Below, one piece after another: positions 1 through 52,714 of a stretch of DNA of 64,000 bases. Source of the stretch: Raoultibacter massiliensis. GTDB taxonomy: Bacteria > Actinomycetota > Coriobacteriia > Coriobacteriales > Eggerthellaceae. The stretch lies in assembly GCF_900199545.1 (NCBI RefSeq), contig NZ_LT962671.1:1453753-1517752 (forward strand). The letters run 5' to 3'. The notes under the pieces are model-generated. The model did no database searches. It was not told the origin of the DNA and worked only from the letters and a program-made list of their open reading frames with translations. How positions within the stretch are numbered: position 1 is the first letter of the stretch; each line of letters starts with the position of its first letter. The position numbers were made by a program, and so were the translations under genes.

Positions 1-66
1 ACAGCGAATCTGAGCAGGCGGGAGCTTCGCTCCGCATTTTCCGCAATTCACGCATGGATAGCACAT
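1..66 (-). CDS. Small Cys-rich protein, 5' end only
   Basis: A good ribosome site (GGAAGGAG, 8 bases before ATG at 66) opens a frame that runs off the left edge after 22 codons. The visible N-terminus has four cysteines within its first eleven residues (C2, C5, C8, C11) and another at position 22, so it is probably a zinc-ribbon or Fe-S miniprotein. It lies 69 bases downstream of another Cys-rich miniprotein on the same strand and continues the long minus-strand cluster. Function unknown; the rest lies outside the window. Confidence 0.6.
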   Translation of the reverse strand, partial: MCYPCVNCGKCGAKLPPAQIRC

Positions 67-135
67 GTGATCGGCTCCTTCCCGTATTCGATACCGCATC
101 GGACGCGCGCAGACCCGCCCGCAGCGCAGCCGCTC

Positions 136-315
136 TTATTCATGCCGAGAACGCCACTCTTCCCACGCCCGCTCGCGCGCTTCTTCGGTAATAGGGGCTT
201 TGCACAGCGGGCAGGCCTTGAGATCCATGAGCGTACGCGCACCGCATTCCGCGCACACGACCATCTTGGGCTTGCAGTTCTCGCATGTCGGCAAACACAT
301 GTAGCAATCAGGCAC
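136..315 (-). CDS. Small zinc-ribbon protein (59 aa)
   Basis: The start is taken as GTG at 315 because AAGGAG sits 5 bases upstream; the longer open frame has no such site. The 59-residue product has eight cysteines, mostly arranged as CxxC-type knuckles (CYMC, CENC, CAEC, CPLC), which suggests two small zinc-binding units followed by a charged helical end rich in E, R and W. It has no signal peptide or membrane segment. It is one of at least four Cys-knuckle miniproteins in this redox cluster and may act in metal handling, protein-protein contact or enzyme assembly. No named family was recognised. Confidence 0.65.
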   Translation of the reverse strand: MPDCYMCLPTCENCKPKMVVCAECGARTLMDLKACPLCKAPITEEARERAWEEWRSRHE

Positions 316-429
316 AATCGCTCCTTTCGGGTGGCGTACAGGTAACTCGAAACGCACGTCTGCAGGCGGGGCCGATGAGCCACGCAGAAGGGCACTGCGC
401 TCGCAGCAGGCCGCGCGGCAGAGGCGAGC

Positions 430-1686
430 TCAATCCATCAGCTCGTCGGGCACGGTCTCATCGAGGCGGTCGTCGCCCGCAAAGAACCGACAGTGAACGC
501 ATTCGATAACGAACAGCACAGCGCATCCCGCACCGGCGACGATCATCGACAGATCGGCCCCGCCTCCCGCGCCGAACAGCAAATCCTTCACGCCCTCGAT
601 GACGAGAGGAGAGACGGAGAAGCCGAGCGACGTCAACGCCAGCACAAGCGAAAGCGCCATGGACACGACGTTCTGATCTACCGATTTCGACGTGCTGTAC
701 AGCGTGGTGACATACTGGATCCCCGCCCCTATGCCGAAAATCGTCCCCCCGACGAGAACCGCCAGCATATCGGGCGCAAGCGCAACCATCAGAAAACCCA
801 CCGTAAGCAAGGCCAACCCGGGCAGAAGCACATATCGGCGAAACAACTTGACTATCTGCCCGTAAAAAACGCCGACCGCAAACGAGGCGATTTGGAGTAT
901 CGCTGTGATCGCCGCAGTGTCCACCACGTTGCCGAAGCCCTTCTCGTTGATGAGCATCGCGATGTTCGACTGGAAGGCGAAGTTGAAAAGCGACACCGCG
1001 CAAAAGATGAAGCATGCGTAGGCCAAGGCGGGAGTAAGCAGCTTTCTTACCCCCGAGGACAGATGCCGACGCTTGATCAGGCGCTCCTCTAACTGGCCTT
1101 TCGGCAGATGCGTAGCCGTGATAATCAGAACGGGGATAACGCCTATGTATATCAGGTACGCGAAATTCCATTGGATGAGGGCTAGAAAACCGACCAGAAG
1201 GGAAACGGCGGCGGCGCCGAGGTAGTTGATCGCCTGCTTGAAACCGAGCACACGACTGCGCTCGCTCTTGCTTTCCCAATACTGGCATACCAGCATGCTC
1301 GCAAGGGGATGCAGCAACCCCTGCCCGATGCCGATAAGGGCGCTGCTCGCAAACAGCAAGCCGATGTGAGGCTCCGCGATCGCCGCCGGAGCAAGTCCGC
1401 CGACCAGCAGAAACGCCAGGGCGATCTCCGCGATGGTCTTCTTGTGCACAAACGATGTCAGAATCCCCGCCAACAAGGTGGTGGGGATGCTGGCGAGCGA
1501 AGGCACGGCGAGGATCATCTGGATCCCCGCGCGGGGAACATCCGGATACATCTCCCACAACATGGCCAGAACAGAGGAGAACGCCGAAAAAACGCTGTCG
1601 TAAATGGCGAAGGCCCCGATAGGAATAAGAAAAAGCAAATGCTGAACCTTGAAATAGCCCGCAATGCTTCTGAGCAGCTCTTTCAT
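430..1686 (-). CDS. MFS transporter
   Basis: A 418-residue integral membrane protein of the major facilitator superfamily, with about twelve hydrophobic segments split by a central basic loop (near LPKGQLEERLIKRRH). ATG at 1686 is chosen because GAGGTGG precedes it by about 5 bases; an upstream in-frame extension of 44 residues is Arg-rich and not membrane-like. The N-terminal half has a glycine-rich helix (GIGQGLLHPLASM) typical of the oxalate/formate and NarK-like MFS branches. It is the second of two adjacent MFS genes downstream of the second molybdopterin enzyme, so it probably imports that enzyme's substrate or exports its product. The substrate cannot be read from sequence. Confidence 0.8.
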   Translation of the reverse strand: MKELLRSIAGYFKVQHLLFLIPIGAFAIYDSVFSAFSSVLAMLWEMYPDVPRAGIQMILAVPSLASIPTTLLAGILTSFVHKKTIAEIALAFLLVGGLAPAAIAEPHIGLLFASSALIGIGQGLLHPLASMLVCQYWESKSERSRVLGFKQAINYLGAAAVSLLVGFLALIQWNFAYLIYIGVIPVLIITATHLPKGQLEERLIKRRHLSSGVRKLLTPALAYACFIFCAVSLFNFAFQSNIAMLINEKGFGNVVDTAAITAILQIASFAVGVFYGQIVKLFRRYVLLPGLALLTVGFLMVALAPDMLAVLVGGTIFGIGAGIQYVTTLYSTSKSVDQNVVSMALSLVLALTSLGFSVSPLVIEGVKDLLFGAGGGADLSMIVAGAGCAVLFVIECVHCRFFAGDDRLDETVPDELMD

Positions 1687-1783
1687 TACAGCCACCTCGC
1701 TGACTAAGCAATCCTGATTACGTAATCGATTTACAATCTCAATGCATGCCGCAAAGCAAGGCGGCATCTCTCGGCGCTCCGCT

Positions 1784-3013
1784 TTACGGACGCGTTTCCC
1801 TTGCGCTTCGCGACGCACCTGAAACGGCGGCGAAAGCGGATCGTTTTTTCATGACCAAGAACAGGATCAACGCTGCGGAGACAAAACCGAAGCAAACCTC
1901 GTACATCGCAGCAACCCCCCACGTCTGCATAACGAATCCCCCCACAAGCGGGCTCATGCCCATATTGACGTCGGGCCCGATATAGAATGTATTAGAAGCT
2001 CTTCCCAATTCTCGCACATCGGCACCGCGCACCGCCTCGGCCTGCAATGCCGAATGCGCCGATCCTTGGCCGATGCCGACAAGCGCCCCCGCAATCGCAG
2101 CAGCGGCAAGGGAATGCATGGCGACGAGAACCGCGACGCCCGCCAGATCGATGAGCAGAGCCGGCGCGATCACGACGCCGAACCCCTTCGTATCGCTCAA
2201 GCGCCCCGCAAGCGGCCGCGCAACGAGCGCCGATACGGCATACAGAGTGAAGTACAAGGATATGCCCGCGATGCCGCGAGCATCCCCGACGGCAAAAAGA
2301 AGCGACACGTTGATGCCGTGAGGCACTCCCGCAAGAGCGGCCATGACCGAATAGGGAGCAGCAGGAACGAACACGAAATCGCGCAGGCGAATCACCCGCT
2401 TGCCGCCGCATCCTTTCCGACGGCGCTCGATGCCAAGATCTGCGCAACCGCTCTTGGGCAGCTTGAACGAAACAGCAAGAACCAGCCCGATCGCAAAGAG
2501 CAGGCCAGCCATCATGAAGCAATCGAAATACCCGACCGCTTCGCCGACGCCGGCAGCAACCGAAGGGGCGATGGCGCACGACGTCGTCGTAACCACGCCC
2601 ACCCAGCCGACCGCCCTGCCGATGCAGTCGTGCGAGACGACTACGGAAACCAGCGAGACGACCACCGCCGAGCGAAACGCGAAGGCGACGCCCTGCACGA
2701 TGCGAAACGCACCGATCCACCACACGTTCGGTGCAAACGCGCAACCGAACGCAGCAACCGTAAACAACAGCGCAGCCAGCACGAGCAGCGTGGTCTTGCT
2801 GAATCGGTCGGAGATCCACCCCGTGAAAGGTCGCATGGCCAATGCGGCAGAGGCGACGAGTCCCGCTATGAACCCGCCTACGGCAAGCGATGCTCCAAGG
2901 AAGATCACGTAGCTGGAAACGATCGGATTCGTCAGATACGTTGCAAACTGGAATACCGCTTCGATAAGCAGCAGATGAACGAATCGGATGTTCCAGAGCT
3001 TGTTGCGTTGCAT
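1784..3013 (-). CDS. MFS transporter
   Basis: A 409-residue, twelve-segment MFS carrier. The motif between helices 2 and 3 is visible as GWISDRFSKTT, and a second copy (GRLSDTKG) lies between helices 8 and 9, as expected for two six-helix halves. AAAGG precedes the ATG. It is followed at 97 bases by a second MFS gene that is only distantly similar, so the pair is not a recent tandem duplication. Its place directly after an oxidoreductase, ferredoxin and zinc-ribbon set suggests substrate/product exchange for that enzyme. Substrate unknown. Confidence 0.82.
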   Translation of the reverse strand: MQRNKLWNIRFVHLLLIEAVFQFATYLTNPIVSSYVIFLGASLAVGGFIAGLVASAALAMRPFTGWISDRFSKTTLLVLAALLFTVAAFGCAFAPNVWWIGAFRIVQGVAFAFRSAVVVSLVSVVVSHDCIGRAVGWVGVVTTTSCAIAPSVAAGVGEAVGYFDCFMMAGLLFAIGLVLAVSFKLPKSGCADLGIERRRKGCGGKRVIRLRDFVFVPAAPYSVMAALAGVPHGINVSLLFAVGDARGIAGISLYFTLYAVSALVARPLAGRLSDTKGFGVVIAPALLIDLAGVAVLVAMHSLAAAAIAGALVGIGQGSAHSALQAEAVRGADVRELGRASNTFYIGPDVNMGMSPLVGGFVMQTWGVAAMYEVCFGFVSAALILFLVMKKRSAFAAVSGASRSARETRP

Positions 3014-3053
3014 GGCGAATCAACCTTTCGCGATATCCGCAGCCTGCGATGCG

Positions 3054-3350
3054 CTACTTCGAAGGCACCTTGGGAGCTTCGGGAGCGCCCGGCGCTTTCG
3101 GGGCGCCGGGCATCGAAGGCGCCGGGGCGGCGGGTGCGGGAGCAGCGGGCGCCGCAACAGCCAGTTCGCTTCCGCATTCAGAGCACTCCATGGCGCCGGC
3201 GATGTTCATCTCGCCGCAATGCGGGCACTTGATCCGATCTTCGGGCAGCTCGGCGCCGCACTTCACACACTTCTCCGCGACGGAGGGATTGATCATGCCG
3301 CACTCGGGACACGTTTTCGGGGTCGAGGCGGCTGCCGGTCTAAAGCACAT
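3054..3350 (-). CDS. Double zinc-ribbon protein with Ala/Pro/Gly tail, MCFRPA family
   Basis: A 98-residue protein preceded by AAGGAAGG. It starts MCFRPA, then has two zinc ribbons with CxxC pairs (CPEC/CVKC and CPHC/CSEC), and ends in a disordered tail of roughly 33 residues made of A, P, G and K (units like APKAPGAPEAP). The gene at 10159-10392 has the same MCFRPA start, one ribbon and the same kind of tail, so the two are paralogues, each sitting beside a molybdopterin enzyme/ferredoxin pair. No enzymatic domain is present. A scaffold, metal-donor or maturation role for the neighbouring oxidoreductase is inference. Confidence 0.75.
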   Translation of the reverse strand: MCFRPAAASTPKTCPECGMINPSVAEKCVKCGAELPEDRIKCPHCGEMNIAGAMECSECGSELAVAAPAAPAPAAPAPSMPGAPKAPGAPEAPKVPSK

Positions 3351-3437
3351 GGCCTTCCTTCTTTCTTTTCGAATATGCGAAAAACCCGTCGGCGCAGGGG
3401 CCGCGCAAGCAGCGCGCAGCCCCGAGCCGACCGTTTC

Positions 3438-3779
3438 CTACGGGATGAGAAGCGTCGTCCTTCGATCGCGTTCGGCCATCTTGGCCGCCAGTTCGTCGAT
3501 CGGACCGTATTCGATCGCGCTTGCCAGGCAATGGAGCTGGCATGCCGGAACGCCGCCTGCGGCGACGCGATCGGCGCACAGATCGCAATACGAGGTGATC
3601 AGCGGGTAGTAGGTGTGCTCCCACGTACCCTCCTCCATCAGCTCCCAGGGACCGAGCACGAGCATTTTAATACCGAACTGGCCGATCGGAAGGTCGTGTT
3701 CGTTCTTGCATGACACCTCGCAAGAATGACATCCGGTGCACCAGTAGTTATCGATGAGCAAGCCGTATTTCTGAGCCAT
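3438..3779 (-). CDS. Two-cluster 4Fe-4S ferredoxin subunit
   Basis: ATG at 3779 follows a near-perfect AGGAGG site. The 113-residue product carries a CxxCxxCxxxC motif (CTGCHSCEVSC) near residue 14 and a second CxxC...CxxxC group (CDLC, CQLHC), enough for two [4Fe-4S] clusters. It belongs to the DmsB/PsrB/transhydroxylase-beta type of electron-transfer subunit but is about half the usual length, which means a minimal two-cluster form. It lies 11 bases after the catalytic gene and surely forms a complex with it. No Tat signal is present on either subunit, so the pair should act in the cytoplasm. Confidence 0.9.
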   Translation of the reverse strand: MAQKYGLLIDNYWCTGCHSCEVSCKNEHDLPIGQFGIKMLVLGPWELMEEGTWEHTYYPLITSYCDLCADRVAAGGVPACQLHCLASAIEYGPIDELAAKMAERDRRTTLLIP

Positions 3780-3790
3780 GTTCCTACCTC

Positions 3791-6292
3791 CTATTCGGCC
3801 ATAAGATTCTGCAGAGCGGGATCGTTCTTGATGGAGCCGGGGAAGTTCTGCAGGCTCGGAAGATCTTGGGGAGCATGCTCGACAAGCGGCGCGTGATCGG
3901 CTTTGGACAACCTGCCGATCATGCACTTCATCGGCGCGCCGAATCCGTAGTGGCCGACGACGTTGTTCGGAATGAGCTCGTTGATGTTGGACTTCCACAC
4001 GCCGCCGATATTGGGTTCGTTCATATCCTCTTCGGGATACCACCAGCCATGGTCGGCCATGACCACGTTCGGCTTCAGGATCGGAGTGATCTTGGCCTTT
4101 TCATAGCACTTGCCCCACGGGTTTTCGATGCACACCCATTCGCCTTCGGTCACCCCGATCTCTTCGGCCAGATCGGGATGCATGGCAACAACCGGATACG
4201 GTTTGATCTCACGCAGCATCTTTGATTGGCGATGCTCGGAATGGAACGAAGCCCAGTTGCGAGCACCCGTGGTGATGGTGATGGGATACTCGTCTTTCCA
4301 GTTGGGGTGTTCGGCGGTGTACTCCGACATGAAATGGGAGGCGGCGCAGGAGTGTAGCTCGTCGGCGTCGTCTTGCCAGTACTCGCTGAACACAGGCTCC
4401 TCGTAATAGGGCAGCGGATCGCCGCCGCACGCCGCGAACATCAGGCTGAAAAGCTCGACCTTGCCCGTCGTGGTGTTGAACCCGGGTTGGCCGTCAGGAC
4501 GCAGCATGCCGCGTTCGTACTTGCGGTACTCGGTCTTGCGGCATACCTGCACATGCTCTTTGAGATATTCCCAATCGTGCCCGAACCCGACCACCTTGGT
4601 GAGGTCCTCGGAGATGTAGCGCTCGATGCTTTCGACCTTGCTTTCGCCGTCGACGTAGAAGTTGTCGCGAAATGCGGGGCGCTGGGCCAGATCGTGGACG
4701 ATCTCGAATTCGCTCTTGCATTCGCCGACCGGCTCGACGGCTTTCACCATTGCAGCCACGGGGCCAGGATGCTCGCCCATGAGCTGTGTGATGTAGCCAT
4801 CGTGCTCGAGCCATGTGGCAAGGGGCAAGAACAGATCGCAGCAGGAAGCGATGGTGGGATTCATGAAGATGTCCTGTGCGACCACGAAGTCCATACGCTT
4901 CAACGCCTTATGCCAACGACCCGGAGCCGCCGTATTGGTGGGAGCCACAGGATTGGTGTGCAGGATCCAGCAGAAGCGCACCGGGTACGGCTCGTCGGTT
5001 TCAAGCGTCGGCAGAAACTCGTCGGGCACCGCCTTGCCGAGCAGCAGCTTGTAGATAGGATAGACGTCGAGGCCAACGGTGCTGTCGCGCTGTTCTTGGG
5101 TAACCGGGTTCGGGGGAACGGTCTCCTTTTTCTTGCTGCCCCCCACCCCGTCGACGTTGTCGAACTGGTTGCCGCCGAAGTCGAGCGTGATGTTCCAACC
5201 GATGTTCGTGCCGCCGGGGATATCCAGATTGCCCGTGATCGCCACAAGCGCGTACAGGCAATGCACGCTTTGAACGCCGTTGGGATTCTGATCGTTGGCG
5301 AGGCCCATGTTGAGCCCCCAGGGCTTTTCGGACAGGCAGCGGGCGACCGCGCGAATGGTTTCGGCGGGCACCTCGGTCACCTCGGCAGCCCAATCGACCG
5401 TGTATTCCATAACGCGCTCTTTGAATTCGTCGAAGCCGTAGCACCATTTCTCAACGAAGTCATGGTCGTACAGATCCTCCTCGATGATCACGCGCAACAG
5501 GCCGAAAGCAAGAGCCGTGTCCGTGTTCGGGCGAAGCTGCATGTAGTAGAGGGCGCGGGTGGAAAGCCAGTTCACGCGCGGATCAACGTTGATGAGCTTG
5601 GTGCCCCGCTTCAGAAGCTCGATGATCGAATGACCCCACGTGCCGTCGGGATTCGAGCGGAGAGAGTCGCGTCCCCAGTTGAGCAGGTACTTCGGCTGCA
5701 CGTACTCGGGATCGTCATAGCGCCCGGGAAGGCCGTTGGCGAAGTCGTATTCAATGTAGCCCGCACCGCCGATCATCGAGCACACCGTATCGCGCGGAGC
5801 CATGCAGGAGAAGCCCGTCTGCGTATAGCACTGATTCGTGGTAACGCAAATGCGGGCAGACGTGTTCGTCATGTAGCGACCCGCTTCACGGCCGGTTCCC
5901 GTCAGCACGGTCAAGCTGTTGGGTCCGTACTGCTCCTTGCACTTCTTGATCTCTTCCTCGATCTTGTCGTAAGCCCAATCCCAGGAAACAACCTTCCACG
6001 CATCGGCGTTGCCTCGATCCTTCGGGTCGCGGTACATCGGGTGAACGACGCGATCGGGGTGGTAGATGAGGTCGAGCACGCGCAAGCAGCGCACGCACAG
6101 GCGACCCTTCGTCGTGGGGTGATCGGGATCGCCCTCGATTTTTACGCACTTGCCATCTTTGACGTATGCGAGCACACCGCATCCCATGCCGTGGCAACCC
6201 GGAGGCGACCACGGAGACGTACGGTGTACTTCGGTGCCATCTTCCAGCACGCGCACCTGAGGAGCGGCGTTTTCATCTATGTAAGTAGCCAA
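3791..6292 (-). CDS. Molybdopterin-dependent oxidoreductase, catalytic subunit (cluster 2)
   Basis: An 833-residue DMSO-reductase-family enzyme with the bis-MGD architecture. Translation probably begins at TTG (6292), since AGAGGT lies 7 bases upstream and no ATG fits. The N-terminal iron-sulfur region is degenerate: C33-x4-C38, C49, C66 and C69 are present, but the position matching the first ligand of the paralogue at 11388-13712 (C27 there) is a serine (S26). A CxxPR motif at C162 is placed identically in both enzymes and is a candidate for the metal-ligand region. There is no Tat signal. The N-terminal pattern (WSPPGCH, GRLCVRC, YHPDR) is like that of gut actinobacterial catechol dehydroxylases and their relatives. 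Substrate unknown; the link to that group is from memory of family patterns. Confidence 0.9.
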   Translation of the reverse strand: MATYIDENAAPQVRVLEDGTEVHRTSPWSPPGCHGMGCGVLAYVKDGKCVKIEGDPDHPTTKGRLCVRCLRVLDLIYHPDRVVHPMYRDPKDRGNADAWKVVSWDWAYDKIEEEIKKCKEQYGPNSLTVLTGTGREAGRYMTNTSARICVTTNQCYTQTGFSCMAPRDTVCSMIGGAGYIEYDFANGLPGRYDDPEYVQPKYLLNWGRDSLRSNPDGTWGHSIIELLKRGTKLINVDPRVNWLSTRALYYMQLRPNTDTALAFGLLRVIIEEDLYDHDFVEKWCYGFDEFKERVMEYTVDWAAEVTEVPAETIRAVARCLSEKPWGLNMGLANDQNPNGVQSVHCLYALVAITGNLDIPGGTNIGWNITLDFGGNQFDNVDGVGGSKKKETVPPNPVTQEQRDSTVGLDVYPIYKLLLGKAVPDEFLPTLETDEPYPVRFCWILHTNPVAPTNTAAPGRWHKALKRMDFVVAQDIFMNPTIASCCDLFLPLATWLEHDGYITQLMGEHPGPVAAMVKAVEPVGECKSEFEIVHDLAQRPAFRDNFYVDGESKVESIERYISEDLTKVVGFGHDWEYLKEHVQVCRKTEYRKYERGMLRPDGQPGFNTTTGKVELFSLMFAACGGDPLPYYEEPVFSEYWQDDADELHSCAASHFMSEYTAEHPNWKDEYPITITTGARNWASFHSEHRQSKMLREIKPYPVVAMHPDLAEEIGVTEGEWVCIENPWGKCYEKAKITPILKPNVVMADHGWWYPEEDMNEPNIGGVWKSNINELIPNNVVGHYGFGAPMKCMIGRLSKADHAPLVEHAPQDLPSLQNFPGSIKNDPALQNLMAE

Positions 6293-6527
6293 CTCTGATA
6301 CCTCTTCTTTCTGGTTTCTCGTCGTTTTGCATCAACCTATGCAGGAAGATGCCCCCTCGCCTATCATTCGGGCGGCGGCCTGAACTTTGCGCGCCTTCTG
6401 CGAAAGCGCTGCGTGCTCCAATGCCCGCGCATGCGACCCCCTTACCCCATCGTTTTCCGTGCGGCTCCGCCCGCCGCGCGCCATCCGACCGAGCATGCGC
6501 CCGAGACGGCCGGCAGAAACCCTCGGA

Positions 6528-6980
6528 TCATCCGAATATGCCCATGGCGAACAGCAGCAGCATGATACCGACGACCGATACCGAGCATCCGAGCAGGTGC
6601 ATGAACGCAAACCGCTGCTCTCCCGATGTCACGTACATGGCCGGCTGTGCGGGATTGACGTAGATGAGATAGGTTTTGCCATCGAGAAACGGAACGGGAA
6701 GCTGTTTGCGCCCCAGGTAAAGATGGAAAAATACGTTCGCACTCTTGCCTTGGTAGGTTCTGCCTTCGAACTCGTAGCGAAATTCGGGCACGGCGAGAAC
6801 GAAAAGGCCCGAGCGTCTGTTCGACTCCGTCTGATCGTCCGATCCCTTGCCAACATATCGCGCGGGAGTCTCCTCCTGGCAAAAATCGGTTTTCTTTGTG
6901 GCCACAACGTCTACGAACAAAATCGCACAACCCGCAAAGGTAACGATCACGGCGATTGCAAGAAGTATGGTATCCAGCAT
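6528..6980 (-). CDS. DUF3592-like small membrane protein
   Basis: A 150-residue protein with one hydrophobic segment at each end (residues 4-26 and about 128-150) and a soluble beta-rich domain between them containing a YLIYVNP motif. This arrangement matches the DUF3592 type of membrane protein. AGCAGG precedes the ATG. It sits between the GPH symporter and the second molybdopterin enzyme on the same strand. No function is known. The 235 bases after it hold no gene and probably contain the promoter or leader of the downstream enzyme. Confidence 0.7.
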   Translation of the reverse strand: MLDTILLAIAVIVTFAGCAILFVDVVATKKTDFCQEETPARYVGKGSDDQTESNRRSGLFVLAVPEFRYEFEGRTYQGKSANVFFHLYLGRKQLPVPFLDGKTYLIYVNPAQPAMYVTSGEQRFAFMHLLGCSVSVVGIMLLLFAMGIFG

Positions 6981-7107
6981 TTCGACCTGCTCTCATTCAT
7001 CGGTTGCCGCTGAAACTGAACGTCCTTCGGCCGAACGGAAGCCGCTCGGCCGCCCGATCCGAATCCGGCGGATGGAAGCAGGCCGGATTCGGATCCCAAG
7101 CGTCCGG

Positions 7108-8610
7108 CTACTTCGCCCTGCGCTCAGCCAGCGCCTCTTCCGCCTCCTTCATCTGAGCGGAAGTCAGGCGGTGCAGGAAGAAGAAGACGACGAAGCAAAC
7201 GATCATGGCGATCGCCGGCACCATGAAGGTCATAAACGTAATACCCTGCACCATGGCTTCGGACACCACCTCGACCGATGCGCTGTAACCGATCGATGCC
7301 AAACCGAAACCGATGATGGCGCCCTGGAACATCTTGCCGATGTTCGGGCACCACTGGATCGTGCCCATGATGAATGCCTTGGCGCTTTCGCCCTTCTTGT
7401 ATTCCTGATAGGTAATGGCGTTCGCCATGCAAGAGAACTCGACGGCCATCATCATGTTGCCGCCGAAGAAGCTGACGACGATCGCAACCGTGAAGACCAG
7501 CGTCGAAGACGCCGCACCGAAGTAGCCGAAAATCATCGAGACGATTACGATGGCGATGCCCGTCAGGTAGGTGATGCGGTTGCCGAGCTTGCGGGCAATC
7601 GCCTCGCCGCAGAACGTGCCGACCAAGCCCGCAGCGTTAGCCAGCGTAAGGCAGCCGGCGTAGAGCATGGGTTGATCGAACACCACGGTGCAGTAGTACA
7701 CGGCCATGGCTCCGAGCAGCATCGACCATATGGCACGTCCGACCTCGCCGATGAACAGGCCCAGCGCAGGCAGATTCGTAAAGAAGTACTTGAGGCACTT
7801 CCAGATGGACACCTTCTCGATATCGCTCGGAATCTCCTCGGCCTTCCGACCCGCCTTCTTGGCCTCGGCGCGCTTGCGGCAGTACTCCTCGGTCGGATCC
7901 ATGCCCTTGAACATCTTGAACAGGTAGACGTATGCGAGCACGAAAACGATGCCCCAGATAAACGCCGTGATGGTATAGCCGATTACCGTATCGGGGCGCG
8001 TGTTGGAAGCAACATCGCCGCCGGCAAAGAAGATGATCATGGGCAGCGAGACCGCAGCGAACAAGAGCTTGATGATCAGGTTGCCCTGAGCCTTGCGGGC
8101 AGACATCAGCGCTCGGTCGGCTTCGGTCCTCGATGCGACCGTGATCATCGACGTTGCAGAAATCATGAACAGGTTGATGAAGAACTGGCCGATAATGTAG
8201 CAGCCGCCGATCAGTACGGCTTGGGCCACACTGCCGGTCTCGACACCGATCCAAGTCCAATCGGTCCAGGCGCCCATGATGAAGACCAGAGCGCAAACGG
8301 GCGCAAACAGCATGTAGGAGCGGTATTGGCCCCAGCGCAGCCACACGCGCTCGATGATAACGGCGGCGATGAACACGATGATCCACGCCATGAAGCTCGA
8401 TATGGTGGTCATGGTGCCCATCAATGCAGGATCCATGCCCACCGCGTTCGTAAGGAAGTAGTTCCAATACGAACTCAGCATTTGATTCCACCCGGAGAAG
8501 AACATCATGCCAAGGCCGTACATAAGCCCCATTTTCTGAGATATGGCGTTCGTGATCTTCCCTACAGCACCTCCCTGAGGTTCGGGAGCGGAAATCGTCG
8601 TATCGGTCAT
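7108..8610 (-). CDS. GPH-type (MelB-like) MFS symporter
   Basis: A 500-residue protein with about twelve hydrophobic helices. Features of the glycoside-pentoside-hexuronide:cation symporter branch are visible, including an early GLGMMFFSGWNQ segment, a long charged central loop (residues about 235-275, many K, E and R) and a C-terminal helix ending in charged residues. GAGGAAAAGG precedes the ATG. It is the only transporter between the two enzyme sets. Relatives in gut anaerobes carry sugars, glucuronides or plant-derived aromatics, so uptake of the enzyme substrate is plausible but not shown. Confidence 0.82.
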   Translation of the reverse strand: MTDTTISAPEPQGGAVGKITNAISQKMGLMYGLGMMFFSGWNQMLSSYWNYFLTNAVGMDPALMGTMTTISSFMAWIIVFIAAVIIERVWLRWGQYRSYMLFAPVCALVFIMGAWTDWTWIGVETGSVAQAVLIGGCYIIGQFFINLFMISATSMITVASRTEADRALMSARKAQGNLIIKLLFAAVSLPMIIFFAGGDVASNTRPDTVIGYTITAFIWGIVFVLAYVYLFKMFKGMDPTEEYCRKRAEAKKAGRKAEEIPSDIEKVSIWKCLKYFFTNLPALGLFIGEVGRAIWSMLLGAMAVYYCTVVFDQPMLYAGCLTLANAAGLVGTFCGEAIARKLGNRITYLTGIAIVIVSMIFGYFGAASSTLVFTVAIVVSFFGGNMMMAVEFSCMANAITYQEYKKGESAKAFIMGTIQWCPNIGKMFQGAIIGFGLASIGYSASVEVVSEAMVQGITFMTFMVPAIAMIVCFVVFFFLHRLTSAQMKEAEEALAERRAK

Positions 8611-8769
8611 GTTTTAACCCCTTTTCCTCCTCGCACGCAAAGGTGCGATGCCTTTGATGTCAACTGCATCCTTGATGCGCACAGCCCCCGTGGCGCAAAT
8701 CACCTCCCGTTTTGATGCCGAGTCGCAAAGGACGTTCGAAAACGGCTCCCGAACGGGCCCGGCATCGGA

Positions 8770-10077
8770 TCAGCCTTCGACGATCATTGTTTCCATCAGC
8801 CAGGACAAGGCTTTCTTGCGGCGAATGCTCTCGCCGAGCGACGCTCGGTAACCGCGCCGCTCGAACTCCTCGTCTGGCAGTGTGGCTAGAGTTTGGGGAA
8901 GAGCGGCCTTTGCTTCGGCGATCTCGTCGCACGTTTCCGCAATCCCCCTCTTCCGCGCAAGCGCATCGAGCGCCAAATTCTGGCGAAGCGTCTCGGCCGC
9001 CTGCATGAACACGTTCATGTTGAATGCATCTTTCGTGGTGCCGTGCTCGTCGCAGTACTCTTCGAGCGTCATTCCCTTGGCGTCGATCGAGCTCAGGGTG
9101 GATGCCATCAGCGATTCTTTCGCTTCCTGGTACATCTCGTCGGGAATGGTGCCGACGAGCCTTTTTTCCAGAGCCGATCGAACCCGGAACACAAGCTCCT
9201 GCTGTTCGACCTTCTCCTTTTGCTGCTCCAAATCGGCACGTATGCGAGCACGAAACCCTTCGAGGTTTCCGAACTGGGGCAGCACGCGCTCGACCCACTC
9301 GTCGTCGACGACGGGTACAACCCGCTTCTGCACCTCGTACAACCTGACCGAGGCCCGATAGCTATCCGGTTTTTCGCCGACGGCCCCGTCATCTGCATCG
9401 AACGAGAAGGAGCGTTCCTCCCCGGGGGTCATACCGCACACGCCGTCGATGAACCCCTGCGGAACGCACCCCTCGGAAACCTCGACGCGCCGCCGCAACC
9501 CCGAGAGGCTTTTGCATGGAGCGCCGTTTTTCAGCATGTCTACGTCCATGAGCGCGAAATCCCCCACGCGAACATCCGCATGATCGGCGCTCTGGAATTC
9601 AGCGCACTGCTGGGCGGAAAAAGCTACCTGCGCATCCACGTCGCTCTCTTCGACCGCGACGACGGGACGCTGCACCCTCACGGGCCCCGCATCGAGAAGC
9701 GAAAGCTCGGGGCGGGGCGTGAGGTTGGCAACGAACGAGAAGGCACGGCCGAATGCCGGAACCTCCTTCGCATGGACGCCCGGCGCAAGCACGGTATCGA
9801 TGCCGAGTTCGCGCACGGCCTCCATCGTAAGTCGATTAAGCAGGAAATCCTTACTTGCCGCCCGGACTTCCTCCTCGCCAAGGGCATCTGCCAAAGCAAG
9901 GCTCAACGACGAGCAGTCTCCCGATGCGGCATCGATGCCCCTGACGCGCGCCATCAAACGATAGAACTCGTCAAGCAATTCATCGACCCGATCGGCCCCG
10001 ACCTCGATTTCAACCTCGATGCGCTGCCCGCCGTCTTTTTCCTCGGCAGCAAGTTTCAAGAACCCAGCTTGAACCAT
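8770..10077 (-). CDS. Trigger-factor-like chaperone lacking the ribosome-docking motif
   Basis: A 435-residue protein with trigger factor layout: N-terminal alpha/beta domain (residues about 15-120), FKBP-like prolyl isomerase domain (about 155-245, with a GFIDGVCGMTPGEER stretch) and a long helical C-terminal arm. The N-terminal loop that in trigger factor carries the GFRxGKxP ribosome-binding signature reads GIDAASGDCSS here (residues 47-57), so docking to ribosomal protein L23 is probably lost. GGGGGAG precedes the ATG. It lies inside the molybdopterin-enzyme cluster, which suggests a dedicated folding factor for these large cofactor enzymes. The housekeeping tig gene is not in this window. 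Confidence 0.8.
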   Translation of the reverse strand: MVQAGFLKLAAEEKDGGQRIEVEIEVGADRVDELLDEFYRLMARVRGIDAASGDCSSLSLALADALGEEEVRAASKDFLLNRLTMEAVRELGIDTVLAPGVHAKEVPAFGRAFSFVANLTPRPELSLLDAGPVRVQRPVVAVEESDVDAQVAFSAQQCAEFQSADHADVRVGDFALMDVDMLKNGAPCKSLSGLRRRVEVSEGCVPQGFIDGVCGMTPGEERSFSFDADDGAVGEKPDSYRASVRLYEVQKRVVPVVDDEWVERVLPQFGNLEGFRARIRADLEQQKEKVEQQELVFRVRSALEKRLVGTIPDEMYQEAKESLMASTLSSIDAKGMTLEEYCDEHGTTKDAFNMNVFMQAAETLRQNLALDALARKRGIAETCDEIAEAKAALPQTLATLPDEEFERRGYRASLGESIRRKKALSWLMETMIVEG

Positions 10078-10158
10078 GATGATATCTCCCCCATCGATCC
10101 TCGTTCAACGCTCCGCACAACCGCGCTTTCCTACACGCTCAGTCGATTCCCCTATGCG

Positions 10159-10392
10159 CTATCGGGCTCCGGGAGCCTTCGGCGCCCCGGGGGCAGCAGG
10201 CGCTCCCGGCGCTTTCGGAGCCCCGGGAGCGCTCGGCGCGGGCGGTCGGCCGGGAGCACCCATGGGACGCGGGCTGCTGGAGGCGAGCTCGGTTCCGCAT
10301 TCCTTGCATTCCGTATCGAAAAAGCTGTTCTCGGCCCCGCATTTCGGGCATTGTTTCGTTGCTGCTTGCGCATCTGCCGGTCTAAAACACAT
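10159..10392 (-). CDS. Single zinc-ribbon protein with Ala/Pro/Gly tail, MCFRPA family
   Basis: A 77-residue protein starting MCFRPA, with one zinc ribbon (CPKC...CKEC, residues about 15-32) and a tail of more than 35 residues built from APGAPKAPG-like units. AAAGGAG precedes the ATG. It is a paralogue of the 98-residue protein at 3054-3350, which has two ribbons. Both copies sit beside a molybdopterin enzyme/ferredoxin pair. The shared MCFRPA start implies selection on the extreme N-terminus. Function unknown. Confidence 0.75.
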   Translation of the reverse strand: MCFRPADAQAATKQCPKCGAENSFFDTECKECGTELASSSPRPMGAPGRPPAPSAPGAPKAPGAPAAPGAPKAPGAR

Positions 10393-10445
10393 GAAAAGCT
10401 CCTTTACGCTTGCTCGCCTGCGCCATCGGTGCGACGACGCTGCGA

Positions 10446-10688
10446 TTACTTGACTTTCTCCCCGTTTTTCTGGGCTTTGTAATACCTGCCCAAGGGAACG
10501 ATTTCCCCTTTCTCATCGGGACTTTCGTCTCCAGTGATTCGGTAGTACACGATCTCGGGCATCATCTCGACTTCGTTGAGCCATTCGTAGCGGTAGTACA
10601 GCTCTCCGTCGAGCAGATACGCCTCCACCGTCGACTCGGCAGCCAACAGGTCGGCATATGCGTCCATGATCTTCTGGCGATCCATCAC
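10446..10688 (-). CDS. Small conserved protein, tandem paralogue 2
   Basis: About 80 residues, acidic and soluble, with a VEAYLLDGELYYRYE core. The start may be GTG at 10688 (GGAGGA 8 bases upstream) or the adjacent ATG at 10685. The neighbour at 10800-11027 has the same core (VEAYIKDGALYYRYD), similar length and a similar C-terminal end (xxAQKxxxKxK), so the two are diverged tandem duplicates. There are no cysteines here and no membrane segment. It resembles no family I can name. Its placement after the ferredoxin gene suggests an accessory role for the enzyme complex. Confidence 0.7.
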   Translation of the reverse strand: MMDRQKIMDAYADLLAAESTVEAYLLDGELYYRYEWLNEVEMMPEIVYYRITGDESPDEKGEIVPLGRYYKAQKNGEKVK

Positions 10689-10799
10689 AGCCCCCTTCCT
10701 CCCGCCTGCCGAAGTCGGCTGGCAGGCGCGCGATCATTCTGTCTCCAATCGGGTTGCGTCCCATCGCCCGCCAACCAGGCGGCGGGACGCGTTGCATGC

Positions 10800-11027
10800 C
10801 TATTTCAGCTTGTCTCCCTTTTGCGCTTCATGGAACTCGACGGTTGTCACCTGCACGGGCTCGGTTGCCCCATCGGCGATCTTGTTGAAGGTGATCTGCC
10901 CGGGTTCCGTCACCGGGTCGGCGGCATCATAGCGGTAGTACAGCGCACCGTCTTTTATGTACGCTTCCACGCAAAGCCAATCGCTCACGAGATCCATGTA
11001 CTTCTCGGCAACGTCTTCTCTGTTCAT
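10800..11027 (-). CDS. Small conserved protein, tandem paralogue 1
   Basis: A 75-residue acidic protein, 12 bases downstream of the ferredoxin gene and so almost certainly co-transcribed with it. A SD-like GGAGTGAGATC precedes the ATG. The core VEAYIKDGALYYRYD is shared with the next gene (10446-10688), and both end in AQK...K. The predicted fold is a short helix followed by beta strands. Function unknown; the close linkage to a molybdopterin enzyme and ferredoxin argues for assembly, redox-partner or substrate-binding work, which is inference only. Confidence 0.72.
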   Translation of the reverse strand: MNREDVAEKYMDLVSDWLCVEAYIKDGALYYRYDAADPVTEPGQITFNKIADGATEPVQVTTVEFHEAQKGDKLK

Positions 11028-11039
11028 ACGATCTCACTC

Positions 11040-11375
11040 CTATTCCTCGCACGGGGTGAAAAGCACCATGTGCGACGAGGTCATCCGCTTAGCCAGTTCC
11101 TCCACCGGGCCGTATTCCATGCAAAGGCCCTGACAGTGGTGCACGCACGTGGGCAGACGGCCCTCCTTCACGCGATCGGCACACAAATCGCAGCGATCGG
11201 TCGGCGTGGGAATGAAGTTGAACTCCCACGTGTTTTCCTTGACAAGATCGGGACCCTGCTGCGTGAGCTTGATGCCCCATTCCCCCTCTTGAAAACCATG
11301 CTCCACCTTGCATGCCATCTCGCAGCTGTGGCATCCGGTGCAGAAGTTGTAATTGATAAGCAAGCCGTTCAACAT
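11040..11375 (-). CDS. Two-cluster 4Fe-4S ferredoxin subunit
   Basis: A 111-residue ferredoxin, homologous to the one at 3438-3779. CTGCHSCEMAC near residue 12 and CDLC...CVHHC further on provide ligands for two [4Fe-4S] clusters. A GGAGGA site precedes the ATG, and the gene follows the catalytic gene by 12 bases. Family members of the DmsB/transhydroxylase-beta type usually carry more clusters or a longer chain, so this is a reduced form. It should pass electrons to or from the molybdenum subunit in the cytoplasm. Confidence 0.9.
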   Translation of the reverse strand: MLNGLLINYNFCTGCHSCEMACKVEHGFQEGEWGIKLTQQGPDLVKENTWEFNFIPTPTDRCDLCADRVKEGRLPTCVHHCQGLCMEYGPVEELAKRMTSSHMVLFTPCEE

Positions 11376-11387
11376 GATTCCTCCTCC

Positions 11388-13712
11388 CTACCGGTTCACG
11401 ACTTCGAATTGATTGCGGCCTACGTTTTCGGGCATATCGCCCTTAGGCTCGGTTCCGTCTTCGACTTTGTAGACCTTGCATAGTTGGGTCTTGTACGAAG
11501 ATCCGTAGCCCGCAGTCGCCATATCGTTTTGGATGGTCAAGCAGTTGATGTTCGAATCGAACGCACCGTACAGACCGTCTTCGAGCTTCCCCGAGCGCTC
11601 GGGGAACCACCACCCGTGCTCGGCCATGATCGTGCCCTTCAAAACACCGTCGGACACCTCGGCTTTCTGCATGATCTTGCCCCACTGGTTCTCCAGGTAC
11701 ACCCAATCACCGTCGCGGATGCCCAGCTCCTCGGCGTCCTGGGTGTTGATCTCGCACAGGGGCCACGGGTGGAACTCGCGCATCGATTTGAGCTGACGGT
11801 GCTCCGAATGGAAGAATTCCCAGCTCCTACGCCCCGTCGTAAGCACGAAGGGATATTCTTTCGCCTCTTCGGGAGCCGAAACGGGGCTGCACGTGGGTTC
11901 CTTGAAGCTCGGCAGCGGATCGATACCCGCCGAATCGTACATGGTGCAGTACAGCTCGATGCGTCCCGTAGTCGTATTGAAGCCCGGCTGATGATCGAAG
12001 CGCATATCGCCCGTCTCGTATTTGCGGTATTGGAACTTCGGATACACGAGCGTCTTCTCTTGCAGTTCCTCCCACGTAATGTCGAACGGCATCGAAGAGA
12101 GATTCTTCATAACGTATTCGTTCATCTCGGGAACCGTATCCCAGAAGAACATATCGGGATTGAGGATCTGACCGAGCTCGAGCATGATCTGCTCGTCTCC
12201 GCGCGCATCGCCCGCTTGCAGGATCTTGTTGATGGCGCGCAGCGGCGTAAACCAAGCGCGGATGCCCCACCGCTCGCAGCCCATGGCGATGGGCAGAACG
12301 ATATCGGCGCAGCCAGCAGCGGTCGGCGTCATGAAAAGGTCGCACACCACGACGAACGGAACCTTCTGCCACGCTTCGTACACGCGCTTCGATTCGCCCG
12401 CCATGTTGATGAAGCTGTTCGTGGAGCACAGAAAGCCCATCTTGATGGGATAGGGCTCGCCGGTCTCCATTGCGAGCAGGATGTCGTCGCCCATGGAGTG
12501 AGGACCGAACCCGACCGTGCGCAGCGCGTACTTCCCATCGCCCAAGCGGCCCTCGCGCACTTCCTTGCCCATGCCCTTGCAGATGTTCTCGCGGATATCG
12601 GATTGAACATGGCCGTACTTCACGTTCACGAAACCACCCGGAACGTCGATGGAACCCGTGAGAACCTCGACGGCCGCAACGGCCAGCGAAGCACCGACAG
12701 CCCACTTCGTCTGGTCGAGCGGCAATCCCCACTGCAGGGCGACCGTTCCAGCAGACCCCAGATAGCGGGCCGCTTCGACGATTTTCTCTGCGGGAACCCA
12801 GGATATCTTCTCGACGACCTCGGGCGTATAAGCGGCGGCACGTTCCTCCAAAGCCTCCATCCCGTACACCCACATGTCGCAGAATTCCTTGTCGTACAGG
12901 TTTTCCTCGAGCATGACATGGCAGATGCCGAGCGCGACGGCGGCATCGGTACCGGGACGAAGCTGCAAGAATATTTCGGCGTGCGCCGCCATCCAGGTCA
13001 CACGGGTATCGACCACGAACAGCTTCGAACCGTGCTGCATGCAGTCGATGATCCAGTGCCCGAAGAACCCGTCGGCGTTGGACACGACCGGATTGCAGGC
13101 CCAGTTCAAAATCACATCGGGACGGCGATATTCGGGATCGTCGAATCGGTCGGCTGAAAGCTGAGCGCAATCCGCAATGAAATCGGAACCGAAAATAGCG
13201 TTCATGGCCTGCAGACGCGGCGTATAGCAGCAGTCGCCCGAAAGCATGCCAGCCGTATCGTTGGGGGTCTTGAATCCGGCGAATGCGAGCGAAGACGTCT
13301 GCCATGTGGCATTGCGCCCCGTGCCGATGCCCGTCACAATGGATTTGGGACCGTACTCCTCGGTAACCTCGCGGGCTTTTTCAGCGATGATGGCATACGC
13401 CTCGTCCATCGTGATCTCTTCCCACTTGTTCTCGCCGCGCTCTCCCACGCGCTTGAGCGGATGCAGAATGCGGTCAGGGTGATTCACCGCCTCGACCATC
13501 GCCAGGCAGCGCATGCACAGCCGGCCCTCGTTCACTGGAGAGCGGGGATCTCCCTCTATCTTCACGAGCTTGTCGTCTTTGGTGTAGAACAAAACATTGC
13601 ATCCTTGATGGCAGCCAGGTCCCGACCACTGGCAGCTTCGCGTGACCGTCGTATCCCCTTCCTGCCATTGCCACTCATCGCGATAGAGATCAGGATTCAT
13701 TCCTTTTCTCAT
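11388..13712 (-). CDS. Molybdopterin-dependent oxidoreductase, catalytic subunit (cluster 1)
   Basis: A 774-residue DMSO-reductase-family enzyme. ATG at 13712 is chosen because AGAGGAG lies 5 bases upstream; the frame stays open further upstream without a site. The N-terminal iron-sulfur ligands are C27-x6-C34-x3-C38-x27-C66, a longer first spacing than the usual two or three residues. A CxxPR motif at C162 aligns exactly with the second enzyme of the window. There is no Tat signal. It is the first gene of a minus-strand block of fifteen genes. The closest functional analogies by pattern are cytoplasmic hydratase, transhydroxylase and dehydroxylase enzymes that act on aromatic or unsaturated substrates; the actual substrate is unknown. 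Confidence 0.9.
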   Translation of the reverse strand: MRKGMNPDLYRDEWQWQEGDTTVTRSCQWSGPGCHQGCNVLFYTKDDKLVKIEGDPRSPVNEGRLCMRCLAMVEAVNHPDRILHPLKRVGERGENKWEEITMDEAYAIIAEKAREVTEEYGPKSIVTGIGTGRNATWQTSSLAFAGFKTPNDTAGMLSGDCCYTPRLQAMNAIFGSDFIADCAQLSADRFDDPEYRRPDVILNWACNPVVSNADGFFGHWIIDCMQHGSKLFVVDTRVTWMAAHAEIFLQLRPGTDAAVALGICHVMLEENLYDKEFCDMWVYGMEALEERAAAYTPEVVEKISWVPAEKIVEAARYLGSAGTVALQWGLPLDQTKWAVGASLAVAAVEVLTGSIDVPGGFVNVKYGHVQSDIRENICKGMGKEVREGRLGDGKYALRTVGFGPHSMGDDILLAMETGEPYPIKMGFLCSTNSFINMAGESKRVYEAWQKVPFVVVCDLFMTPTAAGCADIVLPIAMGCERWGIRAWFTPLRAINKILQAGDARGDEQIMLELGQILNPDMFFWDTVPEMNEYVMKNLSSMPFDITWEELQEKTLVYPKFQYRKYETGDMRFDHQPGFNTTTGRIELYCTMYDSAGIDPLPSFKEPTCSPVSAPEEAKEYPFVLTTGRRSWEFFHSEHRQLKSMREFHPWPLCEINTQDAEELGIRDGDWVYLENQWGKIMQKAEVSDGVLKGTIMAEHGWWFPERSGKLEDGLYGAFDSNINCLTIQNDMATAGYGSSYKTQLCKVYKVEDGTEPKGDMPENVGRNQFEVVNR

Positions 13713-14138: not shown

Positions 14139-15389
14139 ATGCAGGATCACGACGCCCGGGTTCCCGAAGAAGCAAAACCCAGCGATTCAGATGTTCCCAA
14201 CCAAGCCGAAACCCCCTGCGATCCCGATGCCCCGCTCGACAACAGGAAGATCCCGCTGCCGCTGAAGATATTCGGCATACTGTGCCTCATCGGCGGCATT
14301 GCCGTTTTGCCGTTGATAGGCCTTCTCGTTTTCGTGATGGTCGAAGCGTTTCAGGAGGGCATGTTCTCCGACGATTCCATCGTGTCGAACATCCTGTTCT
14401 TCGCCCAAATCGGGCTCATGGCCGCCCTCACCATCCTGTTCATCATCCTCGGTGCGCGCCTCATGCGCAACAAACGCCGTGGGGCCAGACAGGTCGCCGA
14501 AGTGCTCATGGTGCTCGTGATCCTCATCGTTTTATGCGACATGATGCTGTTCGGCTTAAACGAAGACGATATCTTCTACGCCGTGATTTTCGTGATCCTC
14601 ATTGCTCTCTCAAGCTACATCGATCCCTCGCTTGCCGAAGAGCGCGAGCTGCAACGCAAGCTGCGCCTCATGGAGGACCGCTCGCAGGCCGAGCTCGGCG
14701 ACCGAGCGGGCCGCGACCTTTCGGGAGAAGGATTCATCACGCTGAACTTCTTCAACATCTTCTGGATATTCGTCGTCTGCTGCGTGATCGGGCTCATCCT
14801 CGAAACAATTTACCATTTCATGCTGTTCGGAGGCTACGAAGACCGGGCAGGGCTCCTGTTCGGCCCGTTCTCCCCCATTTACGGCTTCGGCGCCGTCCTC
14901 ATGACCGTCGCCCTGAATCGCTTCCACGACAAGCCCATTATCATCATCTTCCTCGTAAGCGCCGTTATCGGCGGCGCGTTCGAGTACCTGACAAGCTGGT
15001 TCATGCAGTTTGCATTCGGCATCATCGCCTGGGATTACTCGGGCACATGGCTCTCCATCGACGGGCGCACGAACGGCATGTTCATGATCATGTGGGGATG
15101 CCTCGGCGTGGTATGGATCAAGCTTTTGCTGCCGCAAATGCTCAAAATCGTGAATCTCATTCCATGGAACTGGCGCTACATCGTCACCACTGTAGCCGCC
15201 GCGCTCATGATCACAAACGGCGTGATGACCCTCATGTCGCTCGACTGCTGGTACGAACGGGAGGCGGGCAGAACGCCCGACACGCCGGTCGAGCAGTTCT
15301 TCGCCGACCACTTCGACAACGAGTACATGGAGCACCGCTTCCAGAGCATGTCCATCGATCCCGACAACGCAACCCGTACCGAGCGCTAA
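14139..15389 (+). CDS. Putative ABC-transporter permease-like membrane protein (CmpB family)
   Basis: A 416-residue membrane protein; ATG at 14139 follows AGGAGC. After a polar N-terminus (about 35 residues) come three or four hydrophobic helices, a charged loop, then a conserved C-terminal block with the pattern FxxxxxIGLILETIYH and LLFGPFSPIYGFGA. That block is the hallmark of the ABC_trans_CmpB family of uncharacterised membrane proteins common in Firmicutes and Coriobacteriia. No ATPase gene lies nearby, so an ABC transport function is doubtful despite the family name. It stands alone on the plus strand. Confidence 0.75.
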   Translation: MQDHDARVPEEAKPSDSDVPNQAETPCDPDAPLDNRKIPLPLKIFGILCLIGGIAVLPLIGLLVFVMVEAFQEGMFSDDSIVSNILFFAQIGLMAALTILFIILGARLMRNKRRGARQVAEVLMVLVILIVLCDMMLFGLNEDDIFYAVIFVILIALSSYIDPSLAEERELQRKLRLMEDRSQAELGDRAGRDLSGEGFITLNFFNIFWIFVVCCVIGLILETIYHFMLFGGYEDRAGLLFGPFSPIYGFGAVLMTVALNRFHDKPIIIIFLVSAVIGGAFEYLTSWFMQFAFGIIAWDYSGTWLSIDGRTNGMFMIMWGCLGVVWIKLLLPQMLKIVNLIPWNWRYIVTTVAAALMITNGVMTLMSLDCWYEREAGRTPDTPVEQFFADHFDNEYMEHRFQSMSIDPDNATRTER

Positions 15390-52584: not shown

Positions 52585-52714
52585 TGGTTTCTCCTTTACG
52601 GGCCTTGGTTTCCGACCAAGGCGAAGACAAGCCTATCTATGATAGCACACTGCTTGCCTCTTGTCTTCGGCACGTCATTAGGCCTGCCCCACCCCACAAA
52701 CCCTGCATAAACGC

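Follow-up and report, generated by a model that had tools for sequence, protein, structure and literature searches.

What pathway could require two molybdopterin enzymes, three carriers and a series of small accessory proteins to be encoded in a single block? The question arises from positions 1-13712 of a 64-kb window, by which we mean the whole stretch of Raoultibacter massiliensis DNA that was analysed (contig NZ_LT962671.1, positions 1,453,753 to 1,517,752; 64,000 nucleotides). According to open reading frame (ORF) coordinates, these positions hold fifteen genes, all on the minus strand and separated by gaps of 11-235 bp. On balance, we lean towards the reading that the block encodes a reductive, dehydroxylase-like pathway that runs in two steps in the cytoplasm and is equipped with carriers of its own and an assembly kit specific to its clients. 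The genes, named in this analysis, are listed in reading order from 13712 downwards, with the evidence for each in brackets.

11388..13712, minus strand: moA, bis(molybdopterin guanine dinucleotide) (bis-MGD) molybdoenzyme of 774 amino acids (aa), putatively Gordonibacter-type (Pfam, PDB search, Cys pattern, tree)
11040..11375, minus strand: fdA, 111-aa ferredoxin with two four-Cys motifs, predicted moA partner (motif reading)
10800..11027, minus strand: dufA, 75 aa, unnamed family, tandem paralogue of dufB (no Pfam match; alignment; linkage)
10446..10688, minus strand: dufB, 80 aa (79 from the second start), paralogue of dufA (alignment, structure model)
10159..10392, minus strand: mcf77, MCFRPA zinc-ribbon miniprotein with an Ala/Pro/Gly-rich tail (sequence features)
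8770..10077, minus strand: trigger-factor-like chaperone, 435 aa, trigger-factor fold without GFRxGKxP (Pfam, tree, alignment, motif, model and fold search)
7108..8610, minus strand: GPH/MFS_2-type symporter family protein, 500 aa (Pfam; linkage)
6528..6980, minus strand: DUF3592-like protein, 150 aa, seen in type I loci (Pfam match below cut-off)
3791..6292, minus strand: moB, second bis-MGD molybdoenzyme, 833 aa, TTG start (Pfam, PDB search, alignment, Cys pattern, tree)
3438..3779, minus strand: fdB, 113-aa ferredoxin with two four-Cys motifs, predicted moB partner (motif reading)
3054..3350, minus strand: mcf98, MCFRPA double zinc-ribbon miniprotein (sequence features)
1784..3013, minus strand: MFS1, carrier family protein, 409 aa (Pfam, synteny)
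430..1686, minus strand: MFS2, carrier family protein, 418 aa (Pfam, synteny)
136..315, minus strand: cys59, Cys-rich miniprotein (sequence reading)
1..66, minus strand: cysT, truncated at the window edge, first part of a 60-aa Cys-rich miniprotein of MCYPC type (orthologue comparison)

This layout confirms the preliminary description of the locus as fifteen co-directional genes on one strand, the fifteenth being truncated. Pfam matches and motifs also bore out its inventory of two molybdoenzymes, two ferredoxins, three carriers (MFS_2/GPH, MFS_1 and MFS_1 by Pfam), a trigger-factor-like protein, two MCFRPA zinc-ribbon proteins, two tandem paralogues and two Cys-rich proteins; the DUF3592-like protein was absent from its list. 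The term 'self-contained' was too strong, as a Pfam scan of the block found neither a regulator nor a cofactor-synthesis gene among the fifteen genes. The full 60-aa form of cysT (MCYPC...) was read from its orthologue in R. timonensis. Pairwise, dufA and dufB were 35% identical, and a model of dufB predicted an alpha/beta fold (predicted local distance difference test, pLDDT, 93) without a confident match in a PDB fold search. A pattern scan returned 27 terminator-like sites against 13.0 (standard deviation 3.6) in shuffles; of those on the minus strand, only one weak site (7037-7021, 5 pairs) falls between genes.

The analysis identified the family of the two enzymes directly: moA and moB, which are 36% identical to each other, both carry the Pfam domains Molybdopterin, Molydop_binding and Molybdop_Fe4S4. 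In a PDB search, which covers solved structures only, the closest match to both was acetylene hydratase (2e7z; E 4.5e-69 for moA and 5.7e-69 for moB), and moB also matched pyrogallol hydroxytransferase (E 1.1e-12). One Cys of moB aligned with the Cys of the acetylene hydratase MYMC stretch, which is the metal ligand. Both enzymes lack the first Cys of the CxxCxxxCx(n)C Fe4S4 motif, and a motif scan, as distinct from a signal-peptide predictor, detected no twin-arginine translocation (Tat)-like RRx[FLIMV] motif in the first 60 residues of either. The ferredoxin genes begin 12 bp downstream of moA (fdA) and 11 bp downstream of moB (fdB), and each product has one CxxCxxCxxxC and one CxxCx11CxxxC motif. 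Because the Fe-S motif is incomplete, a small Fe-S partner and MFS neighbours are present and acetylene hydratase is the nearest solved relative, moA and moB are classed as putative Gordonibacter-type enzymes, a placement made by shared traits and not by a tree with characterised members.

A search for the neighbourhood in other Coriobacteriia, as suggested in the preliminary description, recovered the full set in R. timonensis, most of the set in Adlercreutzia faecimuris and a rearranged set in a second type of locus (type II; the arrangement of the window is referred to as type I). The nearest copy, that of R. timonensis (L001, genome G001), has all fifteen genes in the same order, with identities of 97% for moA, 97% for moB, 98% for GPH and 83% for the trigger-factor-like protein; since the order of all fifteen genes is kept, the block is no chance assembly. 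A LysR gene lies 58 bp past the last gene of this copy, in the opposite direction. The A. faecimuris locus (L002, genome G002) is largely syntenic and preserves the order of moA, fdA, dufA, dufB, mcf77, chaperone, GPH, DUF3592-like, moB, fdB and mcf98. Its chaperone and GPH genes are separated by a pair of MmgE/PrpD-family genes and a gene resembling MFS1 (43%), an MCYPC gene lies upstream of moA, and neither MFS2 nor cys59 was seen on the examined stretch. Its enzymes are strongly conserved (moA 93%, moB 82%) while the chaperone has drifted (56%); GPH is 64% identical.

The type II block was found on stretches from eight relatives (L034-L038, L042, L050 and L055), three of which (L036-L038) are short contigs with part of the block only. 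Its order, as read in L042, L050 and L055, is MFS2, dufB, moA, fdA, GPH, MCFRP, chaperone, Cys-rich miniprotein(s), moB, fdB and MFS1; no moB was present on the examined stretches of L034 and L035. Relative to the window, identities were ∼61% for moA (full copies), 44-45% for moB and 42-45% for GPH. Type II carries one duf gene, versus two in type I, and yielded no match to the DUF3592-like protein. In complete copies, both types retain one moA and one moB. The neighbouring regulators differ, with LysR beside type I (L001, L002) and a LuxR-type gene beside type II (L034). MmgE/PrpD-family (2-methylcitrate-dehydratase-like) genes occur inside the loci of three relatives (L002:11245-12675, L002:14011-15480, L034:3711-5096 and L035:15644-17116). 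In a FastTree phylogeny of 100 enzymes, moA of types I and II grouped in an exclusive 8-row clade (support 1.0). The moB proteins of the two types shared another 8-row clade, in which two rows come from L123 (support 1.0); the trigger-factor-like proteins of both types formed a clade of 16 (support 100/97). All three clades unite the two locus types, and the simplest reading is that moA, moB and the kit were together in a single ancestral locus, which was rearranged afterwards.

Accessory genes as common away from molybdoenzymes as beside them would speak against the preliminary description. Instead, linkage far above background was observed for duf, GPH, the chaperone clade and MCFRP. Among 138 genomes of the family, 10 contained duf matches, 22 in all. 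These fall at 16 sites, 7 of type I and 9 of type II, and a moA gene or the cut end of one lay within ∼0.7 kb at all 16. For GPH, the sample consisted of eight hand-chosen genomes, six of them with a locus: all eight matches at E ≤ 1e-60 fell inside the two locus types, and the two genomes lacking a locus gave zero matches. Fifteen of the 16 members of the chaperone clade had moA or moB on the examined stretch, at most ∼5 kb away; the sixteenth (L040) sits on a 4.1-kb contig, adjoined by an MCYPC gene.

The trigger-factor-like protein itself matched Trigger_N and Trigger_C in Pfam. Its AlphaFold2 model (19 rows; pLDDT 88.8; predicted template modelling score, pTM, 0.66) adopted a trigger-factor fold, and a fold search matched it to E. 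coli trigger factor (1w26; 5.9e-21). The FKBP-like middle domain is present in the fold and weak in sequence. GFRxGKxP, the ribosome-binding signature of trigger factor, was absent from the window protein and from the whole molybdoenzyme-linked clade (motif scan; six orthologues by alignment). It occurred in 6 of 63 untrimmed trigger-factor-type proteins, and those six form one clade (100/100). In the tree of 69 rows, proteins longer than 460 aa were shortened to begin at a Met that left 415-460 aa; four of the six canonical rows lost their GFRxGKxP stretch through this trimming, and the motif counts were therefore taken from untrimmed proteins. In the three clade proteins scanned, the Trigger_N match begins no earlier than model position 58 or 69, versus 11 or 12 in the two canonical ones. 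Compared with trigger factor (tig), the protein thus shares the overall fold and both domains, and differs in lacking GFRxGKxP, in the unmatched first part of Trigger_N and in being tied to one enzyme locus. None of the block's genes had a Pfam match of the TorD/NarJ type. A third group in the tree, also without GFRxGKxP and amounting to 27 of the 69 rows (e.g., L060:8441-9739, L054, L061, L064 and L077), has ribosomal protein genes on the examined stretch, and in the examples read the trigger-factor-like gene lies near those for L2 or L23.

The miniproteins mcf77 and mcf98, both of which begin MCFRPA, belong to a larger family. A DNA-level search for MCFRP starts gave 27, 18, 18, 21 and 17 matches in five genomes, and a reversed control gave 1 in total. 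A molybdoenzyme lay within 5 kb of 23 of 24 copies in G001 and of 17 of 18 in G070, and within 1 kb of 17/24 and 9/18, respectively; in the census of 18 copies, 14 were within 2.5 kb. The background, sampled in 35 control stretches that were set at round coordinates in 10 genomes and not randomly drawn, was 252 of 1295 positions (19.5%) within 5 kb. The corresponding binomial tails were 9e-16 (G001) and 1e-11 (G070), which are guides only, as positions are not independent. Three MCFRP copies happened to fall in control stretches, each with a molybdoenzyme no more than 2.5 kb away. Three of the 27 pattern matches in G001 were excluded: L188 (7 codons), L034:18874 (13 codons, with an N inside) and L187 (550 aa). 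No molybdoenzyme occurred on the 12-kb stretch of L187, whose inclusion gives 23/25. Two retained copies lack a CxxC pair (L182, and L186, which is cut short beside an N). Among stretches seeded by similarity to mcf98, 35 of 39 copies were within 5 kb of a molybdoenzyme; three of the others lie on contigs of 3.0-7.4 kb without one, and the fourth is 6.7 kb away. Of 111 family genomes compared, 42 had a moA relative (E ≤ 1e-150); every one of these had at least one MCFRP start and 37 had at least two. Of the 69 without a moA relative, 22 had at least one and 7 at least two.

Two CxxC motifs were present in 92 of 94 distinct MCFRP copies, whose median length was 79 aa. The last 40 residues averaged 74% Ala, Pro and Gly, a figure that arises partly by construction, as copies used for the tail and codon counts had to be 40-130 aa long with at least six Pro. 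Codon 4, which specifies Arg, was AGA in 88/94 copies, AGG in 6/94 and CGN in none, while codons 2 and 3 show free variation at their third base. Among 1278 other genes on the same stretches, AGA accounted for 2.1% of all Arg codons, for 54 of the 585 located at codons 2-8 and for 12 of the 77 located at codon 4. The preference of MCFRP genes for AGA at this position suggests that selection acts on the nucleotide sequence. In the window, the two codons lie within the following features.

10381-10392 and 3339-3350, minus strand: MCFRP start with Arg codon 4, in mcf77 and mcf98

MCYPC miniproteins were also seen beside other molybdoenzymes (L053:6843, L104:7165, L109:7899 and L112:7293), with an MCFRP gene within 0.3 kb in three of the four.

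We compared the block with known systems using parts of the PubMed Central (PMC) articles cited below. Those parts describe acetylene hydratase as the nearest relative of the catechol dehydroxylases, and place the genes for the Gordonibacter enzymes together with MFS genes and one for a small 4Fe-4S protein (eLife, PMC7028382); catalytic subunits of the Gordonibacter group are reported to lack an Fe-S motif that the Eggerthella group has (review, PMC11574389), and Gordonibacter-type enzymes are described as predicted two-subunit enzymes (PMC11887054). The Gordonibacter-type catechol dehydroxylases (Dodh, Gp Hcdh and Gs Vadh) resemble the block in having a bis-MGD subunit without a Tat-like or intact Fe-S motif, a small 4Fe-4S partner and MFS neighbours. 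By contrast, the block has two distant catalytic subunits, GPH, the trigger factor relative, tandem duf genes and Cys-rich miniproteins. The eam ellagic acid cluster of Gordonibacter and Ellagibacter (Eadh1, Eadh2 and Eah) also brings together a pair of molybdoenzymes, their 4Fe-4S partners and MFS carriers. It is an induced cluster in which Eadh1 and Eadh2 act in series (PMC12771579). By Pfam, none of the block's fifteen genes encodes an Eah-like amidohydrolase-type decarboxylase, and the regulator is LuxR in eam versus LysR beside the type I copy. The main text of the eam paper, whose gene table sits in a figure, contains the words 'trigger factor' and 'zinc' nowhere. In the dadh cluster of E. 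lenta (DadhA-I), a molybdoenzyme is likewise accompanied by accessory genes, which are co-induced and needed for activity: dadhD-H are indispensable for Dadh activity in G. urolithinfaciens, and most dadhD-H deletions still produced Dadh protein (PMC11887054). That system comprises an Eggerthella-type enzyme with a signal peptide, a membrane anchor, a helicase-domain protein and a TorD-like chaperone, Pfam families not found in the block. The available passages of the Gp Hcdh paper (PMC11585353) mention neither 'zinc' nor 'chaperone'. No description of this accessory kit was found in the open PMC literature, judged partly by title or start of abstract and exclusive of subscription papers, preprints, supplements and figures.

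The earlier claim that substrate traffic, catalysis and probable maturation are joined in one unit divides. Traffic and catalysis are well supported by gene content; a maturation role has only become more likely, because of the tight linkage, a trigger factor relative without the ribosome-binding motif and the small proteins of zinc-ribbon type. The data establish the gene content, the enzyme family, the pairing with ferredoxins, the conservation of the set in two locus types and the linkage of the accessory genes to molybdoenzymes, as well as the missing ribosome-binding signature of the chaperone; the substrate and reaction of moA and moB and the assembly role of the accessory genes are inferred. 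In the proposed pathway, the GPH symporter would import the substrate, and moA/fdA and moB/fdB would act in series, in either order, to remove hydroxyl groups from the imported compound, with electrons reaching the enzymes through the ferredoxins and one MFS carrier exporting the product. The chaperone, freed from the ribosome, might hold the apo-enzymes until bis-MGD and Fe-S clusters are inserted, the MCFRP and MCYPC proteins could serve the enzymes as small metal-binding adaptors, and the LysR regulator just outside the window would turn the block on. GPH carriers usually take sugar-like compounds. Given this usual cargo and the MmgE/PrpD genes in the loci of three relatives, a polyhydroxylated, not strictly phenolic, substrate is worth considering as well.

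Several alternatives to this pathway were weighed. The MCFRP, MCYPC and duf proteins might belong to the working enzyme complexes, as additional subunits or as electron carriers, rather than being assembly factors: the small genes are interspersed with or adjacent to those for the catalytic subunits and ferredoxins, MCYPC-type proteins have closely spaced Cys residues, and MCFRP genes adjoin single enzymes or stand between two. We nevertheless regard this as rather unlikely, since the Cys pattern of MCFRP fits zinc ribbons, its Ala/Pro/Gly tail is unlike an electron carrier, and the predicted architecture of the published Gordonibacter-type enzymes, noted above, has two subunits. A similarly limited probability attaches to the idea that the substrates of moA and moB are unrelated and that the two have nothing but carriers and helpers in common. 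In its favour, the enzymes are only 36% identical and stand far apart in the tree; against it, one moA and one moB are retained in complete copies of either locus type, and two enzymes acting in series have a precedent in the eam cluster (PMC12771579).

Non-reductive chemistry, such as hydration or hydroxyl transfer, would accord with acetylene hydratase being the closest solved relative of both enzymes, with the match of moB to pyrogallol hydroxytransferase and with the MmgE/PrpD dehydratase-family genes of the three relatives. It appears improbable, however, because each enzyme has its own two-motif ferredoxin 11-12 bp away and, in the parts consulted, the published dehydroxylases are reductive (PMC12771579, PMC11887054 and PMC11574389). 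The trigger-factor-like protein could also be a general extra chaperone located here by chance, as many Eggerthellaceae have motif-less trigger-factor-like genes elsewhere, including the 27 of 69 rows with ribosomal protein genes. Such a coincidence is likewise improbable, given that the clade is confined to this locus in 15 of 16 cases, with the other beside an MCYPC gene on its short contig, and that the chaperone stayed with the locus through rearrangement.

Other observations weigh against the two-step pathway with a dedicated kit. The nearest solved relative of both enzymes, acetylene hydratase, is not a reductase, and the Gordonibacter-type placement rests on traits and not on a tree with biochemically characterised enzymes. 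The published Gordonibacter-type enzymes were made in G. urolithinfaciens, and this host may itself provide such factors in trans. Some of the kit can be dispensed with, as one moA relative at 64% identity (G030:C47) has an MCFRP start ∼0.8 kb away but belongs to a genome with neither a duf nor a GPH match. MCFRP genes also adjoin molybdoenzymes merely 22-30% identical to moA and moB, so that MCFRP is a general molybdoenzyme companion and not a mark of this pathway. Nor is the wider trigger-factor-type family a molybdoenzyme marker, since 38 of the 53 rows outside the clade had no molybdoenzyme on the examined stretch (the other 15 had one, within 5 kb in 12 cases). Finally, because the ribosomal-gene group also lacks GFRxGKxP, the absence of this motif is wider, and probably older, than the molybdoenzyme link.

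Beyond the preliminary description, we found that MCFRP is one large family beside many molybdoenzymes and that a rearranged second locus type exists. More tentatively than for the block itself, we raise the possibility that Eggerthellaceae build many cytoplasmic molybdoenzymes by a system so far undescribed. It would comprise MCFRP miniproteins (zinc ribbons with an N-terminal Cys and Ala/Pro/Gly tails) that each serve one or two neighbouring enzymes, MCYPC helpers, a ribosome-free trigger factor specialised on molybdoenzyme clients in the most elaborate loci and, across the whole MCFRP family, translational control through the AGA codon. Gut Coriobacteriia encode dozens of such enzymes, the known members of which act on dietary polyphenols, neurotransmitters and steroids, and their expression has been a bottleneck. 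If MCFRP and the trigger factor relative do act in assembly, co-supply of these proteins could make unassigned enzymes accessible. The locus would then also be a case of a trigger factor turned private chaperone, and the MCFRP start with a zinc ribbon would be a marker for finding such loci.

Some further features were noted elsewhere in the window. The divergent neighbour of the block, at 14139-15389 on the plus strand, encodes an ABC_trans_CmpB domain. A flavin reductase-like gene (FMN_bind and FAD_binding_2) occupies 16205-18127 on the minus strand, with two small genes downstream, one of which by eye resembles an XRE-type regulator. An L31-Coriobacteria ribosomal leader was located at 52591-52622, directly upstream of the gene at 52120-52584.

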